From a virus: 64,000 bases of DNA. Numbering within the stretch: position 1 is the first letter of the stretch; the number at the start of each line of letters is the position of its first letter. Made by a program: the position numbers and the translations under genes. The DNA lies in IMG/VR virus record IMGVR_UViG_3300050821_003452, positions 1 through 64,000 of that record; one strand, written 5' to 3'. Below the pieces are notes generated by a model, which ran no database searches, was not told the origin of the DNA, and was given only the letters and a program-made list of their open reading frames with translations. Shown here piece by piece: positions 5,837 through 40,413 of the stretch.

Positions 5837-6058
5837 ATGTGGGAAACCATCAAAGGCTGGTTCAAAAACTCGCTAACGCTTGTCTGGGCGAGACTTCAGT
5901 ATATAGGAAGCATCATCGTGGCCGGGCTGGTCGCTACTTTTGGGGATTATGACTTCAAGACCCTAGCCACCATGACTTCCCGGGATGCGCTGCATATTCT
6001 TGGGGCGCTGGTCATCACCGGCATCATGACAGAATTCTGCCGGCGCAGGACGCTCTAA
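5837..6058 (+). CDS. Small membrane protein of the lysis cassette
   Basis: 73 residues, with AGGATGAA just before the ATG. A membrane segment at about 20-35 (YIGSIIVAGLVATFG) and a second hydrophobic stretch at about 50-65 (HILGALVITGIMTEF) end in an RRR cluster. A two-segment holin is plausible; there is no family-level recognition. Confidence 0.6.
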   Translation: MWETIKGWFKNSLTLVWARLQYIGSIIVAGLVATFGDYDFKTLATMTSRDALHILGALVITGIMTEFCRRRTL

Positions 6059-7694: not shown

Positions 7695-7953
7695 CTGCGG
7701 TCGGATTAAGGGCGTTCAGGGTCGCGTTGTTGTTCTCGACCTGAGTGGTGGCTGCGTCAACCGCTGCCTGATCGGTCCCGCTCCGCAGGGTTGTCACAAG
7801 GGCCTGCACAGCAGTTACGGCGGTAGTGTTAGCGGCGACCGCTGCCGTTAGCTTGGTGGTGTCGGCCATGATCTGTTTCTGCCTTTTCTCTATCTCTTCA
7901 AGCTTTGCGAGAACATCACGCAAAGTGGGCTTTCGCAGCCTACAAGATATCAT
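7684..7953 (-). CDS. Small phage protein, helical, unknown function
   Basis: 89 residues from the ATG at 7953 (AGAGGG ahead); a longer TTG start at 7983 is possible. A coiled-coil N-terminus (DVLAKLEEIEKRQKQI) is followed by Ala/Thr/Val-rich repeats (TTKLTAAVAANTTAVTAVQ), a composition seen in small phage structural proteins. It converges on the RlpA-like gene with an 11-base overlap and diverges from the next plus-strand gene across an inverted repeat. Confidence 0.55.
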   Translation of the reverse strand: MISCRLRKPTLRDVLAKLEEIEKRQKQIMADTTKLTAAVAANTTAVTAVQALVTTLRSGTDQAAVDAATTQVENNNATLNALNPTAASS

Positions 7954-8575: not shown

Positions 8576-9011
8576 TTTCTTCTTCGTCCCCGCCCATTAG
8601 CCGCAGGATTTCATCCTTGCCGGCCTCTAGTTGTTCTCTAGTGAGCCCACTGGGCTGTTCAGCAAGTATCCTTGCGTGACCAGCTAAAGCTTCATCCCAA
8701 GTGCAGTATCTCTCCATATAGCCATCGTTTGGGCCACCAAACACCAAGGTCTCGAATAGAACCGGCGTTCCTCCGGTGAAGCTATGATCCAGCCCCAAAA
8801 AGACCGTGGAGATATCCACTTTGCCGATATTGTCAAAAGCCACGCGGCGATCATTGCCGCCTTTCTCGAAAGCATCATAATATTCCAAGCGGCTCTCTTT
8901 ATCAGAGGGCGCTGGCGAGACCGAATGATCCGCGTTCAGGACATACCAGCGCGGCATGGCGGCCTCGATTAGCTCTTTGGACATTTTTGGCATTTTGGCT
9001 AGACCCTTCAT
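8568..9011 (-). CDS. Conserved-looking phage protein, unknown function
   Basis: 147 residues, starting in an ATGA overlap with the HNH gene; internal Met7 or Met10 starts are also possible. The sequence is a compact mixed fold (RWYVLNADHSVSPAPS, DNIGKVDISTVFLGLDHSF, ERYCTWDEALAGHARIL). It resembles uncharacterised proteins common in phages of proteobacteria. No catalytic motif is obvious. It is the tail of a coupled run of minus-strand genes. Confidence 0.65.
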   Translation of the reverse strand: MKGLAKMPKMSKELIEAAMPRWYVLNADHSVSPAPSDKESRLEYYDAFEKGGNDRRVAFDNIGKVDISTVFLGLDHSFTGGTPVLFETLVFGGPNDGYMERYCTWDEALAGHARILAEQPSGLTREQLEAGKDEILRLMGGDEEENG

Positions 9012-17737: not shown

Positions 17738-18406
17738 ATGACATCCACCGAAACTCTCATTCAAGAACTGGTTAATCTTGGGTGCCCCGCAGCACGGGCC
17801 TTCACCCTTGTCAGTGAGGCTAGAACGCAATGGGCCGCTGAACCAAAACAGCGCTCCCGGCACTCCCTCGCCCAGTCGAAATATTATTTCAAGCGGAAGG
17901 CTAAACGATCATCCGATGATCATCCGATGATCAGTGATGATCATCATGATCACTCAAAAGAAAGTCTCCATACCTCTAAAGAAAACATAGGTTATACATA
18001 TTCTGTTAACTCACTACGTTCGTTAACAGCACCGGAAGACGGTTGCGATCTGTTCAAAAAAGGTCTCCCGCTTCTATCTCAACTCACTGGAAACAAAAGC
18101 CATTCTTCATTGCGTTCACTGCTTGGGCGCTGGGTAAAGATGGTCGATGGCGATCATGTTCATGTTCTCGCCGCCATCGAAGACGCCGCCCGGGAACAGC
18201 CCATCGATCCAAGGGGCTGGATATTTGGCCGGCTCAACCAAATCGTTCGGGAACGCAATAAAAACAGGCCAGAAAGCTACCAGAAAAAGGAAAGCAACCA
18301 TGCCGTTCTTGCCGCTGTCGGAGCCAAAATCAGAGCCCTCTACCCCGAAGACCAACCCCAAGACGGCCCACCACTGGCTAACGCAGCTTTTCGGCTTATT
18401 CCCTGA
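17738..18406 (+). CDS. Putative replication initiator (lambda-O-like position)
   Basis: 222 residues from the ATG at 17738. The N-terminal half is basic and Ser-rich with an Asp/His low-complexity stretch (about 57-71). The C-terminal part has LLGRWVKMVDGDHVHVLAAI, then PIDPRGWIFGRLNQIV, a pattern seen in phage and prophage replication proteins. Its middle encodes a phased cluster of TGATCA sites, as the lambda O gene carries the origin. The next gene starts inside its 3' end, like O-P pairs. The function is inference from pattern and context. Confidence 0.5.
   Translation: MTSTETLIQELVNLGCPAARAFTLVSEARTQWAAEPKQRSRHSLAQSKYYFKRKAKRSSDDHPMISDDHHDHSKESLHTSKENIGYTYSVNSLRSLTAPEDGCDLFKKGLPLLSQLTGNKSHSSLRSLLGRWVKMVDGDHVHVLAAIEDAAREQPIDPRGWIFGRLNQIVRERNKNRPESYQKKESNHAVLAAVGAKIRALYPEDQPQDGPPLANAAFRLIP
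17907..17952. other. Candidate replication origin: phased TGATCA iterons inside the initiator gene
   Basis: Four TGATCA palindromes (17917, 17928, 17938, 17947) plus a GATC at 17907 lie within 46 bases at 9-11 base spacing, about one helical turn. An AT-rich stretch follows (about 17960-18010). In-gene iterons followed by an AT-rich region are the layout of the lambda-type origin. Activity is inferred. Confidence 0.5.
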
Positions 18407-21651: not shown

Positions 21652-21665
21652 CTTTATCCCTCCAT

Positions 21666-21710
21666 AATTGCTTAACACAGTCCCCCGTAAGGGACTGGCC
21701 TTAAGCAATT
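21666..21710 (-). repeat. Nested stem-loop in front of a tagged gene
   Basis: Outer arms AATTGCTTAA/TTAAGCAATT (10 bases, 21666-21675 with 21701-21710) enclose inner arms CAGTCCC/GGGACTG (7 bases, 21678-21684 with 21691-21697). It ends about 15 bases before the start at 21651, leaving the ribosome site just outside. Related in placement to the double stem-loop leaders further right. Confidence 0.65.
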
Positions 21711-21790
21711 CAGAATGGCGCCGTGATGTATCCGGCTATGTAGCCAGCGCAGAATAACTCCACGCAGAAAACCAGACGGAAAAATATCAT
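21710..21790 (-). CDS. Possible micro-protein, hydrophobic
   Basis: 26 codons (MIFFRLVFCVELFCAGYIAG, then YITAPF) starting in a TAATG overlap with the upstream stop. One membrane span. Coupling supports translation, but the size makes this uncertain. Confidence 0.35.
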   Translation of the reverse strand: MIFFRLVFCVELFCAGYIAGYITAPF

Positions 21791-22197
21791 TAATGCACCG
21801 TATGGCCGGCGTGGCCATCCTCTTCGTTATGGTCCGGATCACCGCACTTGCCGAAAGCCGCTTTGGCCAAATCGGAAAGCTCGTCCGGATCGGTTTCGGC
21901 CTGAGCCATACAGGCCAGCATGAAGGGAATATAAGCCTCTTCAGGCACGCCAATGGCTTTCAGCACTTCATGGGATTTATCTACACCCCACTTGGCATGT
22001 TCCCCAAGTTTGTGATGCTTGTGGAAATGCTCGGCCTTTTCATGCAGAAACGGCACGATGCAAAGATATTTTGCAAGAGCCTTTTCAGCATCGTCGCCGG
22101 GGAAAACAGCAAGAAGGTGTTCTTTCTCAAGGACAACACCGTTGACCTTGAATTCCTTCTCGGTTTCCTCGACCTTGATCTTGATCATTCCAAACAT
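21790..22197 (-). CDS. Acidic, His-rich phage protein, unknown
   Basis: 135 residues, with AGAGAGGGAAATC before the ATG. The N-terminus is beta-rich (IKIKVEETEKEFKVNGVVLE). The middle is His-rich (EKAEHFHKHHKLGEHAK), and the end is acidic/His (GDPDHNEEDGHAGHTVH), suggesting metal binding. It has the double stem-loop leader. No family recognised. Confidence 0.6.
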   Translation of the reverse strand: MFGMIKIKVEETEKEFKVNGVVLEKEHLLAVFPGDDAEKALAKYLCIVPFLHEKAEHFHKHHKLGEHAKWGVDKSHEVLKAIGVPEEAYIPFMLACMAQAETDPDELSDLAKAAFGKCGDPDHNEEDGHAGHTVH

Positions 22198-22200
22198 GAT

Positions 22201-22252
22201 TTCCCTCTCTCGATTGAAGCATAAGCGCTTCGTGCTGCGCTATGGACTAGCG
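22201..22252 (-). promoter_or_regulatory. Double stem-loop leader, copy 1
   Basis: Read on the minus strand: CGCTA/TAGCG stem (22238-22252), then GAAGC/GCTTC stem (22216-22231), then AGAGAGGGAAATC and the ATG at 22197. No U-run follows either stem, so these are not classical terminators. Confidence 0.65.
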
Positions 22253-22275
22253 TAGGACGAAAGGCTTGCTTATAT

Positions 22276-22293
22276 TTACACCCAAATTGGGGA
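22276..22293. promoter_or_regulatory. TTTACACCCAAATTGGGG element before endonuclease VII
   Basis: Perfect CCCAAATTGGG palindrome (22281-22291), 8 bases before the ATG at 22300. It shares 17 of 18 bases with the element before the small terminase gene. Candidate operator or promoter part. Confidence 0.6.
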
Positions 22294-22299
22294 AAATCT

Positions 22300-22857
22300 A
22301 TGTCTAAGACGTGCTCACGATGTTCTCAAACGAAACTACTGACGGAGTTTTATGCCCGTGGATCATGGTGCAGGACTTGCAACAAGACTATATGCAAAGC
22401 GTACTATGAAGCTCGGAAGCGACGGAATGGGAAGCTGGTAAGGCCGCGCAATCCGATCATTAATGGTCTCAAAAATTGTCGCCAGTGTAATACTGTAAAG
22501 CTCATATCAGAATTTTGGAAACACGGTAAATTTCCCGGCGCGTACTGTAAGATTTGCGCTAGTGAGGCAGGTAAGGCGTGGTATAAAGAGAATAAGCGTA
22601 AGGATAAGGATTGGAAACTGCGTCGCACTTACGGCCTCACCATTGATCAGTACGAACAAATATTGGCTCGACAGAATTATAAATGTGCTATTTGCAAAGT
22701 TTCTAATCCGAAAGGTCGGAATGGCTTCAACGTAGATCATTGTCACGAAACTAGTAAAATTCGCGGTTTACTTTGTTCCAATTGTAACATTGGAATAGGA
22801 AATCTTCAACACGACCCGGATATTCTCCGGGCCGCATTGAAGTATCTCGAAGTCTAG
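22300..22857 (+). CDS. Recombination endonuclease VII-like (His-Me finger)
   Basis: 185 residues. Several CxxC pairs (CSRCSQTK, CRTCNK, CRQC, CKIC) precede the endonuclease VII core: YGLTIDQYEQILARQNYKC, AIC, FNVDHCHETSKIRGLLCSNC, then NIGIGNLQHD. These are the zinc and catalytic His blocks of the T4 endonuclease VII type family, which resolves branched DNA or nicks at specific sites. Free-standing on the plus strand between minus-strand units, so it may be a mobile element. Confidence 0.85.
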   Translation: MSKTCSRCSQTKLLTEFYARGSWCRTCNKTICKAYYEARKRRNGKLVRPRNPIINGLKNCRQCNTVKLISEFWKHGKFPGAYCKICASEAGKAWYKENKRKDKDWKLRRTYGLTIDQYEQILARQNYKCAICKVSNPKGRNGFNVDHCHETSKIRGLLCSNCNIGIGNLQHDPDILRAALKYLEV

Positions 22858-24020
22858 TAATCAACCGTTCGCCCAAAGGGCGCGCGGAGCTTGTTGTGGG
22901 CAGCGAAGTTCACAAATACGACGGGAAAGGGCGGTTCCTTGCCAAAGGAACCCGTCTCTAAATCTGTGAAAAAGATCATGCCAACTGATCCGGCATATTC
23001 TTCGTTCACAAGCTTCATGAGACTTTCAAAGTGCGTCCCTCCGCCCCCGCGAGGCTTCCATTCAATGACACCCTGCGAGTTGGTTACGACCGAAATTGAC
23101 TTCGGTTCAGTGTCCACGGCAATAAGCGTGGCTTGGTTGATAATATTCTCGTCCAAAACCGCTGACGCCTCTGTCTTCATGGCTTTCAACATATCATCAC
23201 TCACAGAGCCAGATACGTCAAATACCAACAGAAGATTGTAGATATTGTCATCGGCATAACCCGGCATAATCGGGTCCTGCCTACGACGATTTACGCGGGT
23301 CCAAGAACGACTTTCGCGTGATTTGGCATCGCGCGACATATCCCGGATAATATCCCGCCAATTCAGTTTCTCGACTGGCAATAATTCTTCTACCAATCGC
23401 TGAATGTTGGCCGGCATATTGCCGGCCTTCTTGGCCTTGTCAGAGGCGTTTGCTACCGCGCGTGACCAATCCTTGGCTGCCTGATCGGCCTCTTCCTGAT
23501 CTTCCGGAGAGGGGTCTTCCATGCCGCCCGGTTGGTTAGCACCGTTTTCACCATCGCTTTGGCCTTTGCCGCCGCCTTTGCCACCACCACCTTTCTTGCT
23601 TTCCTGTTCTTCCAGAAGCTCATAAATCTCTTCCGCAGCTTTATTAGGATAAAGCCCATCGCCTTTCATTAACTCGGGATGTTGTGGAAAATACTGATGA
23701 ACCAATGGCCTTACTGAAAAGTCAGTGGCTTGGTTCCACTTGTCCTTGTCGCGGGACTTCCTGCGGGGAACATGCGCCAATGCAAGGTGCATGATCACTT
23801 CAAGAATATCGCCCTCAATGTACTGATCATTTTCCTTGACGTATTCCGGATTGAAAAAGATGTTGATGCCGTTAGTCCAGATTGCGGGCCTACGGTCACT
23901 TTCTTCAAGCCGGGCATTGAACAGAAGGGACGCAAAGAAAGGATTGCGCCGCGCGATACGTTCGCGTGCCACCAATACCCGTCGCATTGCATCCGTATAT
24001 TTGGTATTCCAGTTCCACAT
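22854..24020 (-). CDS. VWA-domain protein with degenerate metallopeptidase-like N-terminus
   Basis: 388 residues. The N-terminal 130 resemble the DUF2201-type metallopeptidase-like region: EVIMHLALAHVPRR keeps His78 and His83 but has lost the usual HE pair. A Gly/Lys/Glu linker follows (about 140-195). The C-terminus is a von Willebrand A domain with MIDAS motif DVSGSVS (268-274) and an FFTDLETG block. VWA proteins work with MoxR AAA ATPases, and one is encoded directly upstream. Likely a chaperone-like or metal-insertion machine; substrate unknown. Confidence 0.8.
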   Translation of the reverse strand: MWNWNTKYTDAMRRVLVARERIARRNPFFASLLFNARLEESDRRPAIWTNGINIFFNPEYVKENDQYIEGDILEVIMHLALAHVPRRKSRDKDKWNQATDFSVRPLVHQYFPQHPELMKGDGLYPNKAAEEIYELLEEQESKKGGGGKGGGKGQSDGENGANQPGGMEDPSPEDQEEADQAAKDWSRAVANASDKAKKAGNMPANIQRLVEELLPVEKLNWRDIIRDMSRDAKSRESRSWTRVNRRRQDPIMPGYADDNIYNLLLVFDVSGSVSDDMLKAMKTEASAVLDENIINQATLIAVDTEPKSISVVTNSQGVIEWKPRGGGGTHFESLMKLVNEEYAGSVGMIFFTDLETGSFGKEPPFPVVFVNFAAHNKLRAPFGRTVDY

Positions 24021-24027
24021 GATTTGT

Positions 24028-24080
24028 TCCCTCTTTATGAAGCATGTCGCTTCGTGCTGCCCTAGATTGCTCTAGGGCAG
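24028..24080 (-). promoter_or_regulatory. Double stem-loop leader, copy 2
   Basis: Minus-strand order: a 10-base stem CTGCCCTAGA/TCTAGGGCAG with loop GCAA (24057-24080), a GNRA tetraloop in RNA; then GAAGC/GCTTC (24039-24053); then AGAGGGAAC and the VWA start at 24020. Confidence 0.7.
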
Positions 24081-24092
24081 TGTCGAAACGTC

Positions 24093-25115
24093 TTACTTCT
24101 TATCAACCGCTTCCTGTACCAAGCTCGCCAAGTCTTTGTTGGACTTGAGACTGGTATCGCGCGCCATGGCTTCGTGTGCGGCCATGGAACGGATATCCGG
24201 AGTAAGCCGCGAAAGATACTCGGCAAACTTGGAGGCGTTCTTGAGGTCGATGTTCTTGGCCACGGCAGACGCCACAACATACTGATAGTGTGGATCAGTC
24301 GGGACCTTGGCCTTGCTCGGATTAGCCAGAATATCGCCCATCTTGGGAAGTCCCGCCGCAAGGTTATTGATGAACGTCATAAACTGACGCGAAAAGCCGT
24401 CACCAAGAATAGCCTGAGCATTGTTCTCAAGAACAGCCTTGGAGCTATCCATTGAGAGGTTTTTCAGGACCTTGTTGAAGCTTTCCAAAGACCTTGGCGT
24501 CGGAAATGCCGGATCAGTCTGCGATACCTTGTGAATATCGTCAGGCCGAAGTGTCAAATACGCGACAAGGCGCGGGTCCCAACCCCAGATTTTCATCTTT
24601 TCGATCAAACCCGGAGCGTCGGGTTCCACACTGACATGCGCCATGCGGTTCTCAAGAGGCTTCAGCATCTTGTTATCGCCGCCGCCGTCAGTCCGGGTAT
24701 TGCTTGCCAGCAAAACGCGGTTTTTGTTGGGCAACGGAAAGCCGCCCAAACCACGATCCAGCACAAGGCTATAAGCCATCTGCTGAAGCTGTACACTCGC
24801 ATGTCCGAACTCGTCATAGAACATCACGTGCATATTGCCGTCTTCCTGCGGAATGAATGCAGGCCGCGTCCAATAAGTCGCACGATTGTCCTTGTCGATA
24901 ATCGGCATGCCAGTGCCATCCACAATATCCTTTGTGGAAAGCCGGGTATCATGCAAGATCGAAGTGCCGTATTCTTTGACTATGGCTGGCAAGACTTCGT
25001 TCTTGATGATAGAAGACTTGCCCACACCAGTCGGGCCATAGATCATTACCGGAACATCGGCAAAGACCAAAGGCAAGACGGTATCTGCAAGCTTGGTTAT
25101 TTTCACCTTAAGCAT
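24093..25115 (-). CDS. MoxR-type AAA+ ATPase
   Basis: 340 residues from the ATG at 25115 with GAGAGGGAAAA ahead. Walker A is GPTGVGKSS (27-35), Walker B VMFYDEFGHA, and sensor 1 VLLASNT. MoxR ATPases pair with VWA proteins to activate or remodel targets, and the VWA gene is next downstream. The C-terminal helical part (about 200-340) is typical in length. With the upstream helical protein this forms a three-gene set of a kind seen in other phages. Confidence 0.8.
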   Translation of the reverse strand: MLKVKITKLADTVLPLVFADVPVMIYGPTGVGKSSIIKNEVLPAIVKEYGTSILHDTRLSTKDIVDGTGMPIIDKDNRATYWTRPAFIPQEDGNMHVMFYDEFGHASVQLQQMAYSLVLDRGLGGFPLPNKNRVLLASNTRTDGGGDNKMLKPLENRMAHVSVEPDAPGLIEKMKIWGWDPRLVAYLTLRPDDIHKVSQTDPAFPTPRSLESFNKVLKNLSMDSSKAVLENNAQAILGDGFSRQFMTFINNLAAGLPKMGDILANPSKAKVPTDPHYQYVVASAVAKNIDLKNASKFAEYLSRLTPDIRSMAAHEAMARDTSLKSNKDLASLVQEAVDKK

Positions 25116-25122
25116 GTTTGAT

Positions 25123-25181
25123 TTTCCCTCTCGTCTGAGCAACATTGCTCACCAATGCGCTATATGGCTAGTACAGCGCAT
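25123..25181 (-). promoter_or_regulatory. Double stem-loop leader, copy 3
   Basis: Minus-strand order: ATGCGCT/AGCGCAT stem with a 13-base loop (25155-25181), TGAGCA/TGCTCA stem (25136-25151), then GAGAGGGAAAA and the start at 25115. The second stem differs in sequence from copies 1-2 but keeps full pairing. Confidence 0.65.
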
Positions 25182-25196
25182 GGCGTGAACAGTGAT

Positions 25197-25388
25197 TTAC
25201 GCATACCTGCTATGCGTTATTGAGGTATCAAGACTGTATCCATGAGACCACACTTTTAGCGTTGTGCCGTCCGTAAAGGTAAGGATAATTGTCTCGTTAT
25301 TCCCGTTGGTATTGTTGGCAGTGTCCATTGCCATGTATTCGGCATGAGAAATGGTCTTGCCAACAAGCTCAAAGATATTCACTGGCAT
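25197..25388 (-). CDS. Small protein coupled to the MoxR partner
   Basis: 63 residues from the ATG at 25388 (GGTGGA ahead), overlapping the upstream gene by 20 bases. It is a beta-rich small domain (ETIILTFTDGTTLKVWSHG) that looks like a compact sheet. Unknown function. Confidence 0.5.
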   Translation of the reverse strand: MPVNIFELVGKTISHAEYMAMDTANNTNGNNETIILTFTDGTTLKVWSHGYSLDTSITHSRYA

Positions 25389-26325
25389 CTTCCACCATCG
25401 AAGTGATTTCCTTGTCCCGCAAATCAAGACTTGCGAGCGTGGCCATGACTTCGTTAGCTACTTCCAGAGCTTTTGGCTTGCCATAAGGCGCAACAGGATC
25501 GTTGAACCTTTCAGGCCTGCGGCGCCAGTAGTCTGCGCTGAAATAAGTCAACCGGCCTAAATCAGTGATGACTTTCTTGATTTGCTTGTTCTCAGTCAGA
25601 TTAAGCTTCTCAAGAATTTTTTGAGTATCCCTGATATTATCGATCAAGCTATCATGAATTTTGCCAAGTAATTCGCCCGTAGAAGGCTCTACTTTGACGT
25701 TTTCAAGCTTGTCAATAAAGGCCTGCACGACTTCTCTTGCGCGCCTTACCATGTCATGAGAAGCATCAACTAGCCGTTCTTCGATTTCAGCCTCAATGGA
25801 AGCTTTCGCTTCGCTTGCTGCCTCTTTCGAAATTTCAGCCATCAAATGCCCACTATCAGGCATAGGCCAATAACTAACCTTTGCCGTGAATAGCGCCTTA
25901 GCCTCGTCTTGGCTAGGATATTGCCGGCTATCGAATAACGGTCCTAAATCCCTTTCACTGGCTGCAACAAGTGCAGGATAGTAAAAGATATATTCGGAGC
26001 GCGCGTCTTCTAAATCTTTCAGCGCGGCATTTACGTCATAGCGAAAAGCCTCCAGTGTTTTCACTGGAATCAATCGCATGTTTTCATTTCCCCATGGCAG
26101 GGTATAACGGTAGACGACTTCGCGAACGCGCTGGCTTGCCGCTAATATCCTCTTGACCGTTTTATGATTGCGGTCGATCAGATAAGTAGAGGCTTGCGCA
26201 CGCTTGTCAGATACATGATATGTATTCTGAACCAACGTTGAAGCTTTACTATTCTTGCGTTGGCCAAGCAATCCGCCGTTGGAAATGGTGACAGATACCA
26301 GCATTGCTTTCTTAGTGATATCCAT
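25369..26325 (-). CDS. Helical partner of the MoxR-VWA pair (DUF3150-like)
   Basis: 318 residues from the ATG at 26325 with AGAGAGGGA ahead. It is mostly helical with a long coiled-coil region (about 165-270: EISKEAASEAKASIEAEIEE and following) and an N-terminal VSVTISNGGLLGQRK. In several phages a protein of this general shape, DUF3150, sits next to CobS/CobT-like AAA and VWA genes. The family call is tentative; the neighbourhood is the main support. Confidence 0.5.
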   Translation of the reverse strand: MDITKKAMLVSVTISNGGLLGQRKNSKASTLVQNTYHVSDKRAQASTYLIDRNHKTVKRILAASQRVREVVYRYTLPWGNENMRLIPVKTLEAFRYDVNAALKDLEDARSEYIFYYPALVAASERDLGPLFDSRQYPSQDEAKALFTAKVSYWPMPDSGHLMAEISKEAASEAKASIEAEIEERLVDASHDMVRRAREVVQAFIDKLENVKVEPSTGELLGKIHDSLIDNIRDTQKILEKLNLTENKQIKKVITDLGRLTYFSADYWRRRPERFNDPVAPYGKPKALEVANEVMATLASLDLRDKEITSMVEDASEYL

Positions 26326-26329
26326 TTGA

Positions 26330-26381
26330 TCCCTCTCTCTATTAGAGCTTAATGCTCTATGCTGCACTGTTGCCAGTGCAG
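26330..26381 (-). promoter_or_regulatory. Double stem-loop leader, copy 4
   Basis: Minus-strand order: CTGCACTG/CAGTGCAG stem with GCAA tetraloop (26362-26381), AGAGC/GCTCT stem (26344-26358), then AGAGAGGGA and the start at 26325. The AGAGC/GCTCT pair replaces GAAGC/GCTTC with matched changes on both arms. Confidence 0.7.
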
Positions 26382-26392
26382 AGGTAGAACAT

Positions 26393-26611
26393 TCAGGAGT
26401 TAAGCCAATCCTTGGCCGCTTTCATGGCTTCTTTATAATTGACTACGGCAATGGTATTGCCGGCTATCGCCGTAGGATAAATGGGTTTCCCGTTTTCGTC
26501 GCGGAAATAGATTTCCCAACCTTGACCATAATGGCGAACGCCAACGTGGCCTTTTGATCCCTCAAAACTATACCACTGGTTGGCAAGTTTCTTGCGTGCT
26601 ATCTTATTCAT
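26393..26611 (-). CDS. Small protein, unknown
   Basis: 72 residues: basic N-terminus, beta-rich middle (GSKGHVGVRHYGQGWEIYFR) and a C-terminal helix (KEAMKAAKDWLNS). It has the double stem-loop leader and AGAGGGAAG site. It resembles small host-takeover proteins in size only. Confidence 0.6.
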   Translation of the reverse strand: MNKIARKKLANQWYSFEGSKGHVGVRHYGQGWEIYFRDENGKPIYPTAIAGNTIAVVNYKEAMKAAKDWLNS

Positions 26612-26615
26612 GTGC

Positions 26616-26666
26616 TTCCCTCTCTATTGAAGCTTAATGCTTCTCACTACCGCTCGTAAGCGGTAG
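26616..26666 (-). promoter_or_regulatory. Double stem-loop leader, copy 5
   Basis: Minus-strand order: CTACCGCT/AGCGGTAG stem with TACG loop (26647-26666), a UNCG tetraloop in RNA; then GAAGC/GCTTC (26629-26643); then AGAGAGGGAAG and the start at 26611. The conserved GAAACATT box (26671-26678, plus strand) lies before the stem. Confidence 0.7.
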
Positions 26667-26676
26667 GACAGAAACA

Positions 26677-26979
26677 TTAGAGCGTGGCAGTTTTGCCTTT
26701 ACTGCCGTAGAATTGCAGACTTTCTTGATCCCGCAGAATTGTCTCATATTCGACGGTATCAATTCCCGTTGCCGCCAAAAACCGGAACGTATCGAAATTG
26801 TCGTTTGTGCTTCGTAGATAGTCTGCAAACAAACGGGCAATTTCGAGGCGTTTATCAGGGCTAACGCGCGAGATAATGCCGGCGATATATGCAAAGTGTC
26901 GATGTTGCATAAATCCGGATTTTATCACTCTTGCGCTAACCCTGTCCTTGGCTAGTGCCGATTTAGCTGATAACGGCAT
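26677..26979 (-). CDS. Tagged helical protein
   Basis: 100 residues from the ATG at 26979; a longer start at 27036 overlaps the upstream gene more. Helical body (SPDKRLEIARLFADYLRSTN) and a C-terminal TVEYETILRDQESLQF, which matches the shared tag loosely, followed by 11 residues. It is the most distant tag copy. Confidence 0.55.
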   Translation of the reverse strand: MPLSAKSALAKDRVSARVIKSGFMQHRHFAYIAGIISRVSPDKRLEIARLFADYLRSTNDNFDTFRFLAATGIDTVEYETILRDQESLQFYGSKGKTATL

Positions 26980-27169
26980 TTTTCTTTGCCTTTCTATAAG
27001 CCACAATGGCTGCATAAATCTTTTGCTCAGGTTCATGCGTCATTTCAGCGATGTTCTTGACGGTTTCATGTAACGCAAGGGCAATGCCTTTGTTTCTGCC
27101 AAGCCTAAACGAGGCATAAACGCCAAGGCCATAAACTAGGCCGATCATGAGATAATTTTCTATTGCCAT
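26963..27169 (-). CDS. Small membrane-anchored protein
   Basis: 68 residues: an N-terminal hydrophobic segment (LMIGLVYGLGVYASF) and a basic helical tail (KIYAAIVAYRKAKKN). TTCCCTCT on the plus strand gives an AGAGGGAA site before the ATG. It is coupled to the next gene by a 17-base overlap. Confidence 0.55.
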   Translation of the reverse strand: MAIENYLMIGLVYGLGVYASFRLGRNKGIALALHETVKNIAEMTHEPEQKIYAAIVAYRKAKKNAVIS

Positions 27170-27177
27170 GGTTCCCT

Positions 27178-27384
27178 CTATTCGTCGTTTGGAGTTTCGA
27201 TTAAATCTGGCAAATCGGGCGGAATAGCTGCGGCAATTTCAAGTTTGCCTAACAGCCAGTCCCAATATCCAAGGCGCGTATTGTCCTCAGATACGTCCCG
27301 CTGCCAGTCGGCAACCGGAAATTTATCGTTCTCTTTCCAGATGCCGCCGTGTTCGTCTGCCAGCAAATAAGCTTCCGGGGACAT
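27178..27384 (-). CDS. Small acidic protein, unknown
   Basis: 68 residues, acidic, Trp-rich (DWQRDVSEDNTRLGYWDWLL). It overlaps the stop of the upstream gene by one base. DNA-mimic-like composition is possible, but nothing specific supports it. Confidence 0.55.
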   Translation of the reverse strand: MSPEAYLLADEHGGIWKENDKFPVADWQRDVSEDNTRLGYWDWLLGKLEIAAAIPPDLPDLIETPNDE

Positions 27385-27641
27385 TATTTTGCCCTCTTGT
27401 TATCTGCCCGATAACCTTTTCGGTTATAAGCATATGAAGCTTTCGGCGCAGTGAAAGTCACAACCTTAGGCGTAGGCTGCCCGACATGCTGGCGCGCGTC
27501 TTTAAGTGTCTTATGCGCGACAATCTGCGAGGCATCGCCAATGCTGCTTTCCCGCACGGTTTGATACCGCACTGTTTCGCCGCGAATATTGGAAACCTTT
27601 TGGATTGCATGACCGTTGTAACGGTCGATTGTTCTTAACAT
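27384..27641 (-). CDS. Small basic protein, unknown
   Basis: 85 residues, basic, with the double stem-loop leader. Sequence RQHVGQPTPKVVTFTAPKAS then Lys/Arg-rich end (YNRKGYRADNKRAK). Possibly nucleic-acid binding. Confidence 0.55.
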   Translation of the reverse strand: MLRTIDRYNGHAIQKVSNIRGETVRYQTVRESSIGDASQIVAHKTLKDARQHVGQPTPKVVTFTAPKASYAYNRKGYRADNKRAK

Positions 27642-27645
27642 GGTT

Positions 27646-27705
27646 ATTCCCTCTCTCTATGGTGAAGCAAAATGCTTCGCAATGTAGTAGGATTAGCTAC
27701 TACAT
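27646..27705 (-). promoter_or_regulatory. Double stem-loop leader, copy 6
   Basis: Minus-strand order: ATGTAGTAG/CTACTACAT stem, 9 bases (27682-27705), GAAGCA/TGCTTC stem (27664-27678), then AGAGAGGGAAT and the start at 27641. GAAACATTCA box beside it at 27709-27718. Confidence 0.7.
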
Positions 27706-27715
27706 GCCGAAACAT

Positions 27716-28108
27716 TCAAGCGTTGGCAAATTCAATCCAGTCCGATACATTGGGCGCGTATTCGTGATGATAGTCGAAATTGAAATTATCTAATTCCGCC
27801 TCAGGAATAAGATAATCTGCGATATTATCACGCCAAGCTATTTCGTAATCATCCCATTTGCGAGAGATTAAATATTCCAGATGCCTGTTATTGTCCCAAG
27901 CCTCATTCCATGTTCGGTCCCTCCATCCGCCGCGCTTGATAACCATCATTTCCGAATAAACCATGCTGGCATTATTTGCCCAGTTTCGGGAATACGGATT
28001 GCCAACCATAGGCAAGGGATGCTTGTATTTGCCAAGCCGTGATGGCATTGTCAGGCCGGTTTTGAATTTATACGGCCAAGCTTGAAAGCCTGCTTTCTTC
28101 TTTGCCAT
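27716..28108 (-). CDS. Small aromatic-rich protein, unknown
   Basis: 130 residues from the ATG at 28108 with AGAGGGAAAATATC ahead; the longer frame to 28255 reads back through the leader and is rejected. Trp/Tyr/Asn-rich (WRDRTWNEAWDNNRHLEYLI, KWDDYEIAWRDNIADYLIPE). No family known to me. Confidence 0.6.
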   Translation of the reverse strand: MAKKKAGFQAWPYKFKTGLTMPSRLGKYKHPLPMVGNPYSRNWANNASMVYSEMMVIKRGGWRDRTWNEAWDNNRHLEYLISRKWDDYEIAWRDNIADYLIPEAELDNFNFDYHHEYAPNVSDWIEFANA

Positions 28109-28111
28109 GAT

Positions 28112-28164
28112 ATTTTCCCTCTCAATGAAGCTTGAGTGCTTCCCAATGCGGCGCGAACGCCGCA
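28112..28164 (-). promoter_or_regulatory. Double stem-loop leader, copy 7
   Basis: Minus-strand order: TGCGGCG/CGCCGCA stem with TTCG loop (28147-28164), a classic UUCG tetraloop in RNA; then GAAGC/GCTTC (28127-28142); then AGAGGGAAAATATC and the start at 28108. Confidence 0.75.
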
Positions 28165-28176
28165 CGGCGGAAACAT

Positions 28177-28287
28177 TCATTTGGCTTTGTAAGTGATTTG
28201 CACATTTTGACCGATAAGCCAGTGTCCAATTCGCAAAAATTGGACCCCTAGCCAAATACGGTAATTGCGCTTAAGCCAGATATTCAT
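28177..28287 (-). CDS. Micro-protein, basic
   Basis: 36 residues (MNIWLKRNYRIWLGVQFLRI, then GHWLIGQNVQITYKAK), starting in an ATGA overlap with the upstream gene. Amphipathic and basic; may associate with membrane. Confidence 0.45.
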   Translation of the reverse strand: MNIWLKRNYRIWLGVQFLRIGHWLIGQNVQITYKAK

Positions 28288-28454
28288 GGGCGCATAATTT
28301 CGAAGTGCCGATAACCTTCGCGCCAGCGCCGTGCTTTCCAAGTGAGTGGATTGTACGGATTGGCGTGAATTGAATATCCCTTGCCGGCCATAACGAAACC
28401 TGTTTCGAAAGCTTCGTCGCGACCTGCGATGGCTGTTGCTAGACTGTAGATCAT
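28284..28454 (-). CDS. Small protein, unknown
   Basis: 56 residues from the ATG at 28454 with AGAGGGAAAATATC ahead. Basic and aromatic (KGYSIHANPYNPLTWKARRW). Carries the double stem-loop leader. Confidence 0.55.
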   Translation of the reverse strand: MIYSLATAIAGRDEAFETGFVMAGKGYSIHANPYNPLTWKARRWREGYRHFEIMRP

Positions 28455-28457
28455 GAT

Positions 28458-28515
28458 ATTTTCCCTCTCGATATAGAGCACAATGCTCTAGACTGTGCTG
28501 GAATAACCAGCACAG
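28458..28515 (-). promoter_or_regulatory. Double stem-loop leader, copy 8
   Basis: Minus-strand order: CTGTGCTGG/CCAGCACAG stem, 9 bases (28493-28515), TAGAGCA/TGCTCTA stem (28474-28490), then GAGAGGGAAAATATC and the start at 28454. Confidence 0.7.
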
Positions 28516-28526
28516 GGTTAGAACAT

Positions 28527-28589
28527 TTATCGCCGTTTATGCTTGGCAAATAACGACTGGGAGGCGAAAAACCTGAAAACATATTTCAT
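28527..28589 (-). CDS. Possible 20-residue peptide
   Basis: Open frame MKYVFRFFASQSLFAKHKRR starting 4 bases after the upstream stop. Basic and hydrophobic. Too short to judge; listed because other cassettes here end in such coupled micro-genes. Confidence 0.25.
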   Translation of the reverse strand: MKYVFRFFASQSLFAKHKRR

Positions 28590-28593
28590 GGTT

Positions 28594-28815
28594 TTATGCC
28601 CAATGGTCGATATTAGTGACCCACATATTGCGCGGCGAAGTCTCGCCCTTGCGGCGATATAACTTGACGTTATATGGCCGGCCGTCATCGTGGAAAAATT
28701 CGAAGATATCGAATGTATTCACCGATTTCGGGATAGGACCATGCAACGGGACAAGCGGCATGCTCCAATCGGTATTTGCGGGGCGATCCTGATCATATTC
28801 GCTTTGCTCTGACAT
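28594..28815 (-). CDS. Small protein, unknown
   Basis: 73 residues: acidic N-terminus (SEQSEYDQDRPANTDW), then VNTFDIFEFFHDDGRPYNVK and KGETSPRNMWVTNIDHW. TAGAGGGAAATATTC precedes the ATG. It has the double stem-loop leader. Confidence 0.55.
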   Translation of the reverse strand: MSEQSEYDQDRPANTDWSMPLVPLHGPIPKSVNTFDIFEFFHDDGRPYNVKLYRRKGETSPRNMWVTNIDHWA

Positions 28816-28818
28816 GAA

Positions 28819-28881
28819 TATTTCCCTCTATTTAGAGCGTCCTAAATGGACTAACCCGCTAGGTGTTCTAATACCTAGCGG
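28819..28881 (-). promoter_or_regulatory. Double stem-loop leader, copy 9
   Basis: Minus-strand order: CCGCTAGGT/ACCTAGCGG stem, 9 bases (28856-28881), GTCC/GGAC stem (28839-28851), then AGAGGGAAATATTC and the start at 28815. The short stem is wholly different in sequence from GAAGC/GCTTC. Confidence 0.65.
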
Positions 28882-28887
28882 AATAAA

Positions 28888-29163
28888 TTAAGCAGCAACC
28901 ATTTCGCGATAATTCGCGGCGGTTTTGAACGCTTGTGCCGTGGCGCGCATGTAATTTTTGTACACACTCGGCATAACTAGTTCCGCAATCTGCCAGTGAT
29001 AGTCGGCATAATGCGCAACGCGTTCTTGGTAGGCTTCCCAAGCTGGAATGCGGATGCTTTCATAAACATCCTGTTGAGCGGGCGAAAGCAAATCGGCGGC
29101 CAACTCGCCCCAATTTACTTCTGCCAAGTCATCCAGCGCCAAGGCTTCAGAAAGTGTAAGCAT
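28888..29163 (-). CDS. Small helical acidic protein, first gene of the cassette run
   Basis: 91 residues, helical (SEALALDDLAEVNWGELAAD, NYMRATAQAFKTAANYREMV). AGAGGGAAC precedes the ATG. It is the promoter-proximal gene of the minus-strand run of small cassettes. No family recognised. Confidence 0.55.
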   Translation of the reverse strand: MLTLSEALALDDLAEVNWGELAADLLSPAQQDVYESIRIPAWEAYQERVAHYADYHWQIAELVMPSVYKNYMRATAQAFKTAANYREMVAA

Positions 29164-29166
29164 GGA

Positions 29167-29269
29167 ATGTTCCCTCTATTGATTGACCGTAAATGGTCTA
29201 ACAGCCGTCGAGGGATAGCCTTTCAACCCTAGAAAGCCTTGTGGGCGATCAGGCGGAATAGGCTATCCC
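29167..29269 (-). promoter_or_regulatory. Double stem-loop leader, copy 10 (with long distal arm)
   Basis: GACC/GGTC stem (29185-29198) next to the AGAGGGAAC site, preceded on the minus strand by a larger inverted repeat GGGATAGCCT/AGGCTATCCC (29212-29221 with 29260-29269) enclosing 38 bases. Leader of the first gene of the run. Confidence 0.6.
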
Positions 29270-34391: not shown

Positions 34392-34457
34392 ATGGCAGGA
34401 AGAGTTAGCGCGAAGATGGCTCTTTTTGCCGACTGAAGAGGTTCTAACCTTTTCAGG

Positions 34458-34487
34458 GCGGGGAGGGAAGTTACGCTCCCTCCCCGC
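34458..34487 (+). promoter_or_regulatory. GC-rich stem-loop ahead of a plus-strand gene
   Basis: 11-base arms GCGGGGAGGGA/TCCCTCCCCGC with an 8-base loop, then AGAGAGGGAAAT and the ATG at 34510. Same plan (stem-loop plus AGAGGGAA site) as the minus-strand leaders, and no U-run. Confidence 0.6.
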
Positions 34488-34509
34488 TAACGTCTTGAGA
34501 GAGGGAAAT

Positions 34510-34770
34510 ATGTTTCTCACGAAAGAGCAAGCCAAAGAGACATGGTGTCCGTATGCGCATGTCGTATCGCTGCCAGCGCCAGTTATATCCGGATATAATA
34601 GAGCTTGGATAAGAGGCGGCAAAGCTGAAAATAATCATCCAGCTTGTACGGGATGCCTTGCCGATAAGTGCGCCTGTTGGCGCTGGGAAGCCTCTCTAAC
34701 TGATATAGACCTGACGACTAGCTCCGTTGAGAAGCGCGGTTATTGCGGTCTGGCCGGCAGACCATGCTAG
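34510..34770 (+). CDS. Cys-rich small protein, paralogue of the next gene
   Basis: 86 residues from the ATG at 34510; the longer frame crosses the stem-loop. Pattern: TKEQAKETWCP, then CTGCLADKCACWRWEA and RGYCGLAGRP. Cys spacing suits a metal or Fe-S site. The next gene has the same layout, so they are duplicated. Uncharacterised in my knowledge. Confidence 0.65.
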   Translation: MFLTKEQAKETWCPYAHVVSLPAPVISGYNRAWIRGGKAENNHPACTGCLADKCACWRWEASLTDIDLTTSSVEKRGYCGLAGRPC

Positions 34771-38114: not shown

Positions 38115-38284
38115 TTTTCTAACTCACCCAGAAGCTTTGAAATCTTCTTATCGGCCTTACGGATGTTCCTGAGAACCATTTTAGTTCTAGTTGGAGCGCA
38201 ATTAATGGCGATTTCCAATATTTTCATCCATAGGTCATTGTTTCTAGCCCTAATTTCCTTGATCTTATATAGTTTTTTTCTCAT
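38111..38284 (-). CDS. Small basic protein of the nonulosonic operon
   Basis: 57 residues (MRKKLYKIKEIRARNNDLWM, then helices to ISKLLGELEK) with ATGA overlaps on both sides. Similar short proteins with an R-x-x-NN-x-W-M phrase accompany synthase genes in bacterial surface-sugar clusters, to my recollection. Role unknown, perhaps a synthase partner. Confidence 0.6.
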   Translation of the reverse strand: MRKKLYKIKEIRARNNDLWMKILEIAINCAPTRTKMVLRNIRKADKKISKLLGELEK

Positions 38285-39348
38285 AGGGCATCTCTCAACT
38301 TGCTGACCATGGTGTTGATCTCTTCATCGGTTGGATCGAAAGCACATACCTCGAATAATACCATGCGATCTTCTACGTCTTCGACCGCAGGAAGCCAGAT
38401 TTGGCGCGACTTGAAGGCTTTCAATTCATAGAGCGGTCTCAAATAGCCGGCCCTGAATGGCTCAGGTATTGGTTTTCTTGGTTTGGTTCTTAATTGCGCT
38501 CCCCAGACGTAGTAACTATGGGTACATCCTTGTCTGATGGAAGGTGGTATAAGAACATCATTGGGCGGAATTAAGTCGGTGATCTTCTGAGCCAGAGCCA
38601 TCCTGCCGGCGATAATCTCTGGCGCTTTCTTAAGCTGCTCAATGGCCATAGCGGCAGTTATCTCCGTCATGCGCAGATTAAGGCCGGTTATGCCCCCGCG
38701 CATTTCGCCATGGTTCATGGCCTCTCTGAGCTTGGTATCAAGTGTATTACTTGCTGTGACGACTATTCCTCCCTCGCCAACCTGAAGATGCTTGTGGACG
38801 TTAAGGGAGAATACCCCCATATGGCCAATCGTGCCCGCATAGCGACCCTGCTCTTGAGCAAAAATCGACTGAGCATTGTCCTCAATGAGATAAACTCCAT
38901 GGTCATCACATATGGACCGCAATTCGTGAAGATGTGCGGCGTGGCCGAAAAGATTTGTGACGATCACTGCCTTGGTCTTTCGAGTAATCGAATTAGCCAC
39001 GTCCACGGGATCAAGCGTGTAGGTCTCTCTCTCGATATCGGCCCAGACCAGCGTGGCGCCAAGTACCTTGGGTGCTGCCGCTGTAGCAGACATAGTATAT
39101 GGCGAGACAATGACTTCATCGCCGGGACCAACCTCGATAGCCATACAGGCCGCAAGCAGCCCAGACGTGGCGCTATTAACGGCAACGGCATGTTTGATAT
39201 CGAAGGCTTTCTCCCAGCCTAACTCAAGTTCAGTTATGGCCCTTCCACCAGTTGGGTGTGAGCCGATATATCCAGAGAGCGGATAACCCTCAATAATATG
39301 ATCAGCCGCGCCACGCTCTGCATTCCCGATTGTATTGAAGCTCTTCAT
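38281..39348 (-). CDS. DegT/DnrJ-type sugar aminotransferase (PseC-like)
   Basis: 355 residues from the second Met. GYPLSGYIGSHPTGGRAITE, NSATSGLLAACMA, DEVIVSPYTMSATAAAP, LFGHAAHLHELRSICDDHG, YLIEDNAQS, and the PLP-lysine block SLNVHKHLQVGEGG (Lys about 186). PseC aminates UDP-4-keto-6-deoxy-AltNAc using glutamate. Adjacent to the PseB-like dehydratase, so the same pathway step order is present. Substrate is inferred from context. Confidence 0.8.
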   Translation of the reverse strand: MKSFNTIGNAERGAADHIIEGYPLSGYIGSHPTGGRAITELELGWEKAFDIKHAVAVNSATSGLLAACMAIEVGPGDEVIVSPYTMSATAAAPKVLGATLVWADIERETYTLDPVDVANSITRKTKAVIVTNLFGHAAHLHELRSICDDHGVYLIEDNAQSIFAQEQGRYAGTIGHMGVFSLNVHKHLQVGEGGIVVTASNTLDTKLREAMNHGEMRGGITGLNLRMTEITAAMAIEQLKKAPEIIAGRMALAQKITDLIPPNDVLIPPSIRQGCTHSYYVWGAQLRTKPRKPIPEPFRAGYLRPLYELKAFKSRQIWLPAVEDVEDRMVLFEVCAFDPTDEEINTMVSKLRDAL

Positions 39349-39493
39349 TATAGTTCTCATGTTTCAGGAAATTGGCTCTAGCATCCTGCATTGTTTTGCC
39401 ACTACCAAGACAGATGCCATAACGAAATCCGCAATACCAAATCTTGGTTTCTTCATCTTGGATGAAAACATATTTCGGCAGGAATTTAATCAT
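39302..39493 (-). CDS. Small protein inside the nonulosonic operon
   Basis: 63 residues (YVFIQDEETKIWYCGFRYGI, then MQDARANFLKHENYNEEL). It starts in an ATGA overlap with the PseB-like gene and overlaps the aminotransferase start by 47 bases. Unknown; a tight coupling role is possible. Confidence 0.5.
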   Translation of the reverse strand: MIKFLPKYVFIQDEETKIWYCGFRYGICLGSGKTMQDARANFLKHENYNEELQYNRECRAWRG

Positions 39494-40413
39494 AGCGTAT
39501 CCCTTATCTCTTCCACTGAAAGAAAGCGCTCATTAGTATCGGATGAATATCTCATGCCGGGCTTGGTGTTATTCGTTGTATCCGGATTAAGGATATACCT
39601 ATCCCAGCTTTCGAGGGCCATATGGCTTTCATCGTCTGTGATCAGCGTCTCATGCAGCTTTTCTCCGGCCCGAATGCCGATCATGGAGTGATTACCGCCC
39701 GGGTCAATCGCCTCTACCAAGTCCATGATATGGACAGAGGGTATCTTGGGAACGAAAATCTCGCGGCCCTTCATCATGCTCTCTGAAGAAAGAACAAAGT
39801 CCACCGCCTCGTCCAGCGTCATCCAGAACCGTGTCATGCGCTGGTCGGTTATCGTGAGAGGTAGACCCCGAGCATGTAGGGATTTGAATAGGGGGACCAC
39901 ACTACCGCGACTGCCCACCACATTGCCGTACCGCACAACGCTGAACTGACACCGCCCAGCAGCCAGATTATTAGCGGCCACCATGATCTTTTCGGCTGCA
40001 AGCTTTGTCGCCCCATAGAGGTTAAGCGGGCTGACAGCCTTGTCGGTGGAAAGTGCGACAACTCGGCTAACACCAGTCGCCATCGCTGCCCTGCATACAT
40101 TTTCTGCCCCATGAATGTTGGTCATCACCGCTTCGAATGGATTATATTCGCAAGTCGGCACGATCTTCAGAGCCGCCGCGTGGACTACAAGATCGGCTCC
40201 ATACATGGCCATCTCAAGGCGCTTACGATCTCTTACGTCTCCTATGAAAAATCTCATGGCTGGATGATCAAAGTGATGCGCCATGGCCTCCTGAAGCTGC
40301 TCTCCGCGAGAATATATGATTATCTTGGCCGGTTCCATAGGAAGAACCTTGCGCACGAAGGCATTGCCGAAGGAGCCGCTGCCTCCGGTGATCAGGATAG
40401 TTTTACCTTTCAT
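39490..40413 (-). CDS. pseB: UDP-GlcNAc 4,6-dehydratase, PseB-like
   Basis: 307 residues. NAD(P)-binding TGGSGSFG (9-16), FFIGDVRD, DLVVHAAALKIVPTCEYNP, STDKAVSPLNLYGATKLAAE (Asp124/Lys125, Tyr133/Lys137), then VVRYGNVVGSRGSVVPLF and IGIRAGEKLHETLI. This pattern is specific for the PseB/FlaA1 group that converts UDP-GlcNAc to the 4-keto-6-deoxy sugar with C5 inversion. It is the first step for pseudaminic acid. Coupled to the next gene by ATGA. Confidence 0.9.
   Translation of the reverse strand: MKGKTILITGGSGSFGNAFVRKVLPMEPAKIIIYSRGEQLQEAMAHHFDHPAMRFFIGDVRDRKRLEMAMYGADLVVHAAALKIVPTCEYNPFEAVMTNIHGAENVCRAAMATGVSRVVALSTDKAVSPLNLYGATKLAAEKIMVAANNLAAGRCQFSVVRYGNVVGSRGSVVPLFKSLHARGLPLTITDQRMTRFWMTLDEAVDFVLSSESMMKGREIFVPKIPSVHIMDLVEAIDPGGNHSMIGIRAGEKLHETLITDDESHMALESWDRYILNPDTTNNTKPGMRYSSDTNERFLSVEEIRDTL

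Follow-up and report, generated by a model that had tools for sequence, protein, structure and literature searches.

Why should at least ten genes in one stretch of viral DNA begin behind the same kind of folded leader, and what could such a leader do? The stretch, 64,000 nucleotides (nt) long and hereafter called the window, corresponds to bases 1-64000 of the 76,589-base IMG/VR record G000 (IMGVR_UViG_3300050821_003452). A first-pass annotation had noted that the genes starting at 22197, 24020, 25115, 26325, 26611, 27641, 28108, 28454, 28815 and 29163 share a distal and a proximal stem-loop ahead of a Shine-Dalgarno (SD) sequence, with a sequence box recurring beside several of them. These starts are indeed all minus-strand ATGs preceded by an AGAGGGA-type SD and upstream hairpins (10/10; gene starts are our own calls throughout), and its account of GCAA, TTCG and TACG loops and of missing U-runs is likewise correct. 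We find that the box and the two arms of the proximal stem together make up a three-strand switch architecture, which is well supported, and we propose below that it may sense ribosomes terminating on the upstream gene.

The box had been taken for a separate recurrent signal and the two stems for independent structures, and neither view survives. The box, GAAACATT (read as AATGTTTC in the RNA), can pair along the proximal stem's 5' arm and on into the loop that follows it, as in the pairs AATGTTTCG/CGAAGCATT, AATGTTCTA/TAGAGCATT and TGTTCAC/GTGAGCA. If the box is numbered strand 1 and the 5' and 3' arms of the proximal stem strands 2 and 3, then the 1:2 helix lengthens the distal hairpin and the 2:3 helix is the proximal stem of the first-pass annotation; because strands 1 and 3 compete for strand 2, the two pairings are mutually exclusive. 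A typical leader thus consists of a distal stem of 7-10 bp, an internal loop (mostly 3x2 or 2x2, with ACA/CA, GC/UG and GUC/UG recurring), a 1:2 helix of 7-10 bp, and a proximal loop that is mostly 4-6 nt long and measures 3 nt in 7/69 leaders.

That both pairings are maintained was examined in 71 leaders picked only by their distal hairpin, SD and open reading frame (ORF). Complementarity stood far above permutation for 1:2 (z=13.7) as well as for 2:3 (z=10.1; 0/5000 permutations in each case), with the reservation that shuffles and permutations leave shared ancestry in place. Neighbouring leaders of one genome, however, carry differing triples, and ancestry leaves that difference unexplained. 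When the leaders were aligned by MAFFT without any knowledge of structure, strands 1 and 2 were paired in 96% of cells, and their covariation score was 0.500 against 0.174+-0.016 for shuffled data; it dropped to at most 0.13 once the alignment was slid by 1-3 columns, and it persisted after the window sequences had been removed. Orthologous genes of other viruses retain the element while all three strands differ. For the 318-aa product of gene 26325, the triple is TTCTA/TAGAG/CTCTA in the window, TTCAC/GTGAG/CTCA in the related record G001, TTTCG/CGAAG/CTTC in G005 and CACTG/CAGTG/CACT in G008. Covariation well above background and retention in homologues were the two checks that the first-pass annotation had called for, and its central claim, that of a repeated unit with compensatory changes kept in relatives, is borne out by permutation and covariation alike.

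The family can also be recovered by direct searches. A scan for the 1-2-3 motif in five related genomes returned 53 matches, 38 of them at a score >=45, compared with 5-11 matches (0-1 at that score) in shuffled sequence. A covariance model trained on 38 leaders from other viruses, with no window sequence among them, matched the 76.6-kb record at nine leaders and no others; these lie on the minus strand, within window positions 21657 to 28528, and have E-values, which are to be read as rough, of 1.4e-13 to 5.6e-5 and a next match at E 3.5. The Rfam 15 covariance models contained no family matching the leaders, and a literature search that included sequence strings yielded no description of the element. 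The leader element is confirmed as a selected RNA structure, far beyond chance.

Two further regularities are concerned with how the strands are matched and where they lie. Counted from the internal loop, the fifth of the ten 1:2 pairs is a U(box).G(strand 2) wobble in 62/69 leaders, and strand 3 presents a C to the same G, such that the 2:3 helix is free of the wobble which the 1:2 helix contains. A C-G pair takes the place of U.G at this position in three leaders without strand 3 (window 21651, G003 44470 and G004 43391), a small set judged by eye. As to placement, the stop codon of the upstream frame ends 7-14 nt ahead of the distal stem in 83% of the 71 leaders, against 8% at shifted control positions, where open frames of >=25 codons, not proven genes, were counted; the distance is 10 or 11 nt in 40/67 leaders. 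By established toeprint geometry, a bacterial ribosome whose A site holds a stop codon reaches some ten nt past that codon, and strand 1 fits within the space so covered. At three boxes in the window, the annotated upstream gene end lies farther away, and predicted small minus-strand ORFs end exactly at the box (28589-28527, 20 aa; 28287-28177, 36 aa; 21790-21710, 26 aa). These ORFs are probably unannotated genes, brought to light by the element. Most neighbouring genes of the operon are separated by a leader. Where junctions of the block lack a leader, genes overlap or sit a few bases apart, and nearly every junction therefore has either a leader or another means of coupling.

The folding behavior of the leaders, along with their stop-codon geometry, suggests that a ribosome at the end of the upstream gene throws the switch. 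Strand 1 begins at the upstream stop codon, and in the absence of a ribosome it would pair with strand 2 and extend the distal hairpin (state A). A ribosome halted at that stop would cover about 10 nt, that is, all of strand 1, while the distal hairpin ahead of it would remain folded. Strand 2, thereby released, could then pair with strand 3 to produce a distal and a proximal hairpin (state B), in which the pyrimidine-rich strand 3 would cease to mask the SD, a purine-rich sequence a short way downstream. In this manner each gene, once translated, would license the next, one junction after another, and the pair-5 U.G in 1:2, as opposed to C-G in 2:3, would hold state A just slightly more stable than state B. 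In nearest-neighbour folding of the free RNA, the probability of the 1:2 pairing is 0.75 and that of 2:3 is 0.16; if the bases upstream of the distal stem are blocked, as they would be by a ribosome, the predicted 2:3 probability rises to 0.73. State A minus state B amounts on average to -2.4 kcal/mol in these calculations, and predicted SD accessibility goes from about 0.43 to 0.54, a significant (p=3e-6) and small change. As to whether the downstream ribosome-binding site would be inhibited by default, the accessibilities compared were 0.42 and 0.51, a difference again significant and small. We put it at about an even chance that the leader would serve as a ribosome-termination-sensing, three-strand switch for translational coupling at gene junctions, with the ribosome as its presumed trigger and downstream translation as its presumed output. 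The larger picture, in which terminating ribosomes would flip one switch after another along an entire operon, and would do so across diverse uncultured viruses, we hold somewhat more tentatively.

Several observations weigh against this proposal. Its likely output step, the translation of the next gene, is the weak part of the case. The predicted shift in SD accessibility is modest, and in either state the SDs appear to be open in part. Shuffling the letters of strand 3 leaves its masking of the SD just as good, so that composition accounts for the effect. The idea that strand 3 is a sequence-specific anti-SD was thus rejected, and a weak compositional effect is what we retain. In a second class of leaders, a further hairpin separates strand 3 from the SD (G010). 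Translational coupling is mostly most efficient over short distances, and structure immediately after a stop codon has been reported to reduce it (PMC12548453); the leader junctions span about 65-75 nt. It could also be that the abutment of stop codon and element comes in part from genome compaction. In the proposal's favour, coupling by RNA unfolding is known to act across +52 nt in rpmI-rplT (PMC12548453). Also in its favour, genes 29163 and 28815, at the head of the block, have two hairpins and no box, which fits genes meant to be active with no signal before them; the boxless 28815 nonetheless has a gene upstream of it.

Among the functions that the first-pass annotation had offered, translation control fits best. 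Its second suggestion, endonuclease processing, survives as the main rival, and we regard it as unlikely. State A would on this account be a signal for RNase III processing that also protects the ends it creates: a hairpin of ~16-20 bp interrupted by an internal loop (3x2 or 2x2), much as in the T7 R sites. After a cut at that loop, the upstream RNA would keep the distal hairpin at its 3' end, and strand 2, now free, would form with strand 3 a hairpin cap at the 5' end of the downstream RNA, giving one mRNA per gene. The anatomy is suggestive, with a distal stem, an internal loop and the 1:2 helix lying between genes just before the SD, and strand exchange after cleavage would account for strand 3. 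T7 R1.1, a 60-nt RNA that derives from a gene junction of T7 and has an asymmetric internal loop of 4/5 nt (PMC6121014), is similar in outline and is cut by Sinorhizobium RNase III (PMC6121014). The Sinorhizobium enzyme, however, favours longer double-stranded RNA than that of E. coli (PMC6121014), while the helix here is short and interrupted, and the fixed distance of the upstream stop codon is left unexplained. The remaining suggestion, plain mRNA stabilisation, explains neither the third strand nor the stop-codon placement. In the form of static 5' hairpins whose pairing with the box is incidental, it could point to the pair of hairpins that adjoins the SD in the majority of leaders and to the boxless leaders at the start of the block, but 1:2 covariation equals or exceeds that of 2:3, and we consider it very unlikely.

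A phage or host protein, be it repressor or activator, that binds the long hairpin and so regulates the whole block would make sense of an element that precedes many genes, and the conserved pair-5 wobble and the recurrent internal loops could be its contacts. Yet a single reader would need neither coordinated changes in three strands nor a stop codon at a fixed distance, and no candidate RNA-binding protein was present among the proteins scanned, which makes such a site decidedly improbable. It is more doubtful still that the junctions are alike in order to act as recombination points for gene exchange, in the manner of PeSLs, even though the element accompanies differing genes, junction lengths are conserved and some leader cores in locus L319 are repeated (near-identical cores recur there at 7951, 8423 and 9276 and at 8863 and 10430, which suggests that the element was duplicated or converted as a cassette). 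Neighbouring stems differ and covary, which would work against homologous exchange, and neither the wobble nor the position of the stop codon follows from gene shuffling; we give this reading a very slim chance. The idea that the hairpins are DNA-level promoters read by an N4-type virion RNA polymerase (vRNAP) is largely refuted and was dropped. The window does contain N4 gp24/gp25-type genes, and N4 early promoters are short DNA hairpins (PMC4496689). The largest ORF of the record, though, encodes 1106 aa as against ~3500 aa for N4 vRNAP, the proximal loops mostly have 4-6 nt instead of 3, the wobble is U.G on the mRNA strand, so that a template strand would carry A.C, and the N4 early region is without such an element. 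A PF00940 search for a T7-like polymerase was uninformative, the control genomes giving no match either. Sigma-70 promoters and intrinsic terminators occurred at chance level in our scan, and none of the promoter-like sites fell in the minus-strand leaders.

Returning to the leaders themselves, not all ten form one set: two hairpins are present throughout, but two lack the box and are missed by the covariance model and one has an eroded box. All coordinates that follow are on the minus strand, and unless noted otherwise each leader was found by the scan as well as by the covariance model (rough E-values in brackets). In the leader of gene 28454, the box, strand 1, is AATGTTCTA at 28519-28527 and its first A is the final base of a TAA stop; it is followed by the distal hairpin CTGTGCTGG-ttatt-CCAGCACAG (28493-28515), by strand 2, TAGAGCATT, which can be the partner of either box or strand 3 (28482-28490), and by strand 3, TGCTCTA (28474-28480), the model matching 28465-28528 (3e-6). 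The gene 28108 leader (28116-28175; 2.8e-11) is composed of box TGTTTCC at 28169-28175, a distal hairpin at 28147-28164, strand 2 GGAAGCA at 28137-28143, strand 3 GCTTC at 28127-28131 and the SD at 28116-28121. For gene 27641 (27648-27716; 1.2e-9), these parts are box AATGTTTCG at 27708-27716, distal hairpin at 27682-27705, strand 2 CGAAGCATT at 27671-27679, strand 3 TGCTTC at 27664-27669 and SD at 27648-27653, and for gene 26611 (26617-26679; 1.4e-13), box TAATGTTTCT at 26670-26679, distal hairpin at 26647-26666, strand 2 AGAAGCATTA at 26635-26644, strand 3 GCTTC at 26629-26633 and SD at 26617-26622. The gene 26325 leader (26330-26393; 6.5e-9) has the box AATGTTCTA at 26385-26393, the distal hairpin at 26362-26381, strand 2 TAGAGCATT at 26351-26359, strand 3 GCTCTA at 26343-26348 and the SD at 26330-26335.

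Two leaders stand before N4-type genes of the block. That of gene 25115, which encodes an N4 gp24-type ATPase (24093-25115), occupies 25125-25191 (5.6e-5), with box TGTTCAC at 25185-25191, distal hairpin at 25155-25181, strand 2 GTGAGCA at 25146-25152, strand 3 TGCTCA at 25136-25141 and SD at 25125-25130. That of gene 24020, encoding an N4 gp25-type metallopeptidase/VWA protein (22854-24020), occupies 24028-24090 (1.5e-9), with box CGTTTCG at 24084-24090, distal hairpin at 24057-24080, strand 2 CGAAGCG at 24048-24054, strand 3 GCTTC at 24039-24043 and SD at 24028-24033. The top phage matches of both proteins are N4-like phages at ~30% identity or less. In the gene 22197 leader (22202-22262; 2.9e-5), an eroded box, TTTCG, lies at 22258-22262, the distal hairpin at 22235-22255 contains one A.C mismatch, and strands 2 and 3 are at 22227-22232 and 22216-22220. 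Upstream of it there is no same-strand gene end but an opposite-strand endonuclease VII-type gene (PF02945; 22300-22857, plus strand), situated between the gp25-type gene and the leader; the box is without its outer half, as if selection had relaxed after insertion of the endonuclease VII gene.

The leader of gene 21651 (21657-21710; 1.8e-6), which had been called a nested relative, is a member of the family, one that is not so much nested as lacking the 3' arm, strand 3; its box AATTGCTTAA (21701-21710) and strand 2 TTAAGCAATT (21666-21675) enclose a distal hairpin at 21678-21697 and pair by Watson-Crick rules throughout. The two boxless leaders are related two-hairpin structures. Before gene 28815 (28816-28880), a distal stem and a GTCC/GGAC hairpin occur with no 1:2 pairing, and before gene 29163, the first of the block, a GACC/GGTC hairpin is found (29164-29230); the covariance model matches neither. 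The supposed plus-strand relative at 34458 is not a member, as it has no box and is missed by the model; two strong hairpins of a different family precede a plus-strand SD there (34443-34545).

A comparison with 50,697 phage records brought up no near relative of the window. Its terminase and portal genes lie at 46.6-51.2 kb; the phage also carries aminotransferase-like genes (phrog_2736, phrog_3139; 38281-42380, minus strand), and TGATCA/GATGATCATC repeats that make inverted repeats cluster at 17870-17955. Leaders were seen in about twenty other viral records. Four related IMG/VR records, G001-G004 (ATPase identity 60-76%), hold many more of them, a pattern for one common triple located the element in many further IMG/VR contigs, full-record scans found it in G005, G006, G008-G012 and G014-G018, and it is also present in loci including L319, L322, L327, L171 and L176. 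Other SD types accompany some leaders (AGGAGGAG in L319, GGAGCAA in G008), and the second class, seen in G008 and G010, is spelled in wholly different letters, GAATACTA / TAGTGTTC / GAACACT, which are again three-way complementary. In G004 (L012), three leaders, near 5856 and 7854 and at the matching site before the gene at ~11370, carry, between strand 3 and the SD, one more hairpin built along similar lines.

Searching further afield with the ATPase alignment turned up no additional relatives, a DNA pattern that was short and permissive was discarded because its matches were mostly chance, and the element was not found in N4, TM4, Pixie, MW202675 or the two Rhizobium phages RHph_TM29 and RHph_TM3_3_9. 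When 84,980 prokaryote genomes were searched by pattern, 92 stretches came back, and a single one of them, in a Bradyrhizobium elkanii prophage (L262), contained the element. All viruses with leaders are uncultured. In a related virus, RF02496 (Atu_At1, a Rhizobiales small RNA; 83 bits) matches L011 6648-6755 on the plus strand, just 5' of a leader-bearing gene, which hints at a Rhizobiales host or at a shared small RNA; a Rhizobiales host is a guess from this one Rfam match and the one prophage.

Ribosome-driven RNA switches have so far been known as single, case-by-case devices, and what we describe is one RNA family placed at many operon junctions, with compensatory changes in three strands, in at least 20 viral records. 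If the proposed coupling were true, the way in which prokaryotes tie together the output of neighbouring genes would become directly testable with dozens of natural, matched variants, boxes at stop codons would predict small genes, and a modular part would be at hand for the engineering of coupled operons. A relay of this kind would order or balance viral gene expression by means of a previously undescribed RNA family.

How, then, do the leaders compare with known systems? They lack the defining features of three kinds of repeated element which they resemble. Like the SAS/ESAS of Cluster K mycobacteriophages, they are repeated before many start codons, and about half of the SAS are found with an inverted repeat, a role in translation initiation having been proposed (PMC3203893); SAS is, however, a fixed 13-mer and ESAS a fixed 17-bp repeat, in place of which the leaders display three-strand covariation. 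Neither GGGATAGGAGCCC before the start nor the 17-bp ESAS repeat is found here, the window SD being AGAGGGA; the ESAS of TM4 and Pixie (TGTTGAC...CAACA) look promoter-like, and these two genomes gave zero covariance-model matches and a few scan matches, none at gene starts. PeSLs of T4-type phages are likewise stem-loop cassettes repeated between phage genes, but they contain an early promoter, and here promoter-like sites are no commoner than chance and do not coincide with the leaders. N4 vRNAP promoters, too, are short hairpins, placed ahead of early genes in phages that have gp24/gp25, but they act at the DNA level, number three sites, have a 3-nt loop and need a vRNAP, which was not found here.

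The T7 RNase III sites, R1.1 and others, have in common with the leaders a lower helix, an asymmetric internal loop and an upper helix located between genes before the SD, and a hairpin of about 20 bp with an internal loop is indeed present at the gene junctions; the leaders differ in adding a third strand that can replace the lower helix and a stop codon at a fixed distance. In coupling by RNA unfolding (f1 VII-IX, MS2 coat-lysis, E. coli rpmI-rplT), the upstream stop lies at the structure, as it does here. Ribosome-mediated attenuation is exemplified by trp and ermC. In coupling and attenuation systems, as would be the case in the leaders, the position of the ribosome selects between mutually exclusive pairings, and two of their features are present: pairings that share one strand and exclude each other, and a stop codon placed such that a ribosome there would cover one of the strands. 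By analogy, the leader may work like RNA-unfolding coupling or ribosome-mediated attenuation (PMC12548453). The known cases are single, unrelated elements, whereas here a covarying family with a conserved wobble recurs at many junctions of many viruses. Taken together, we argue that the leaders are a covarying RNA family outside Rfam, and probably an iterated use of a known principle.

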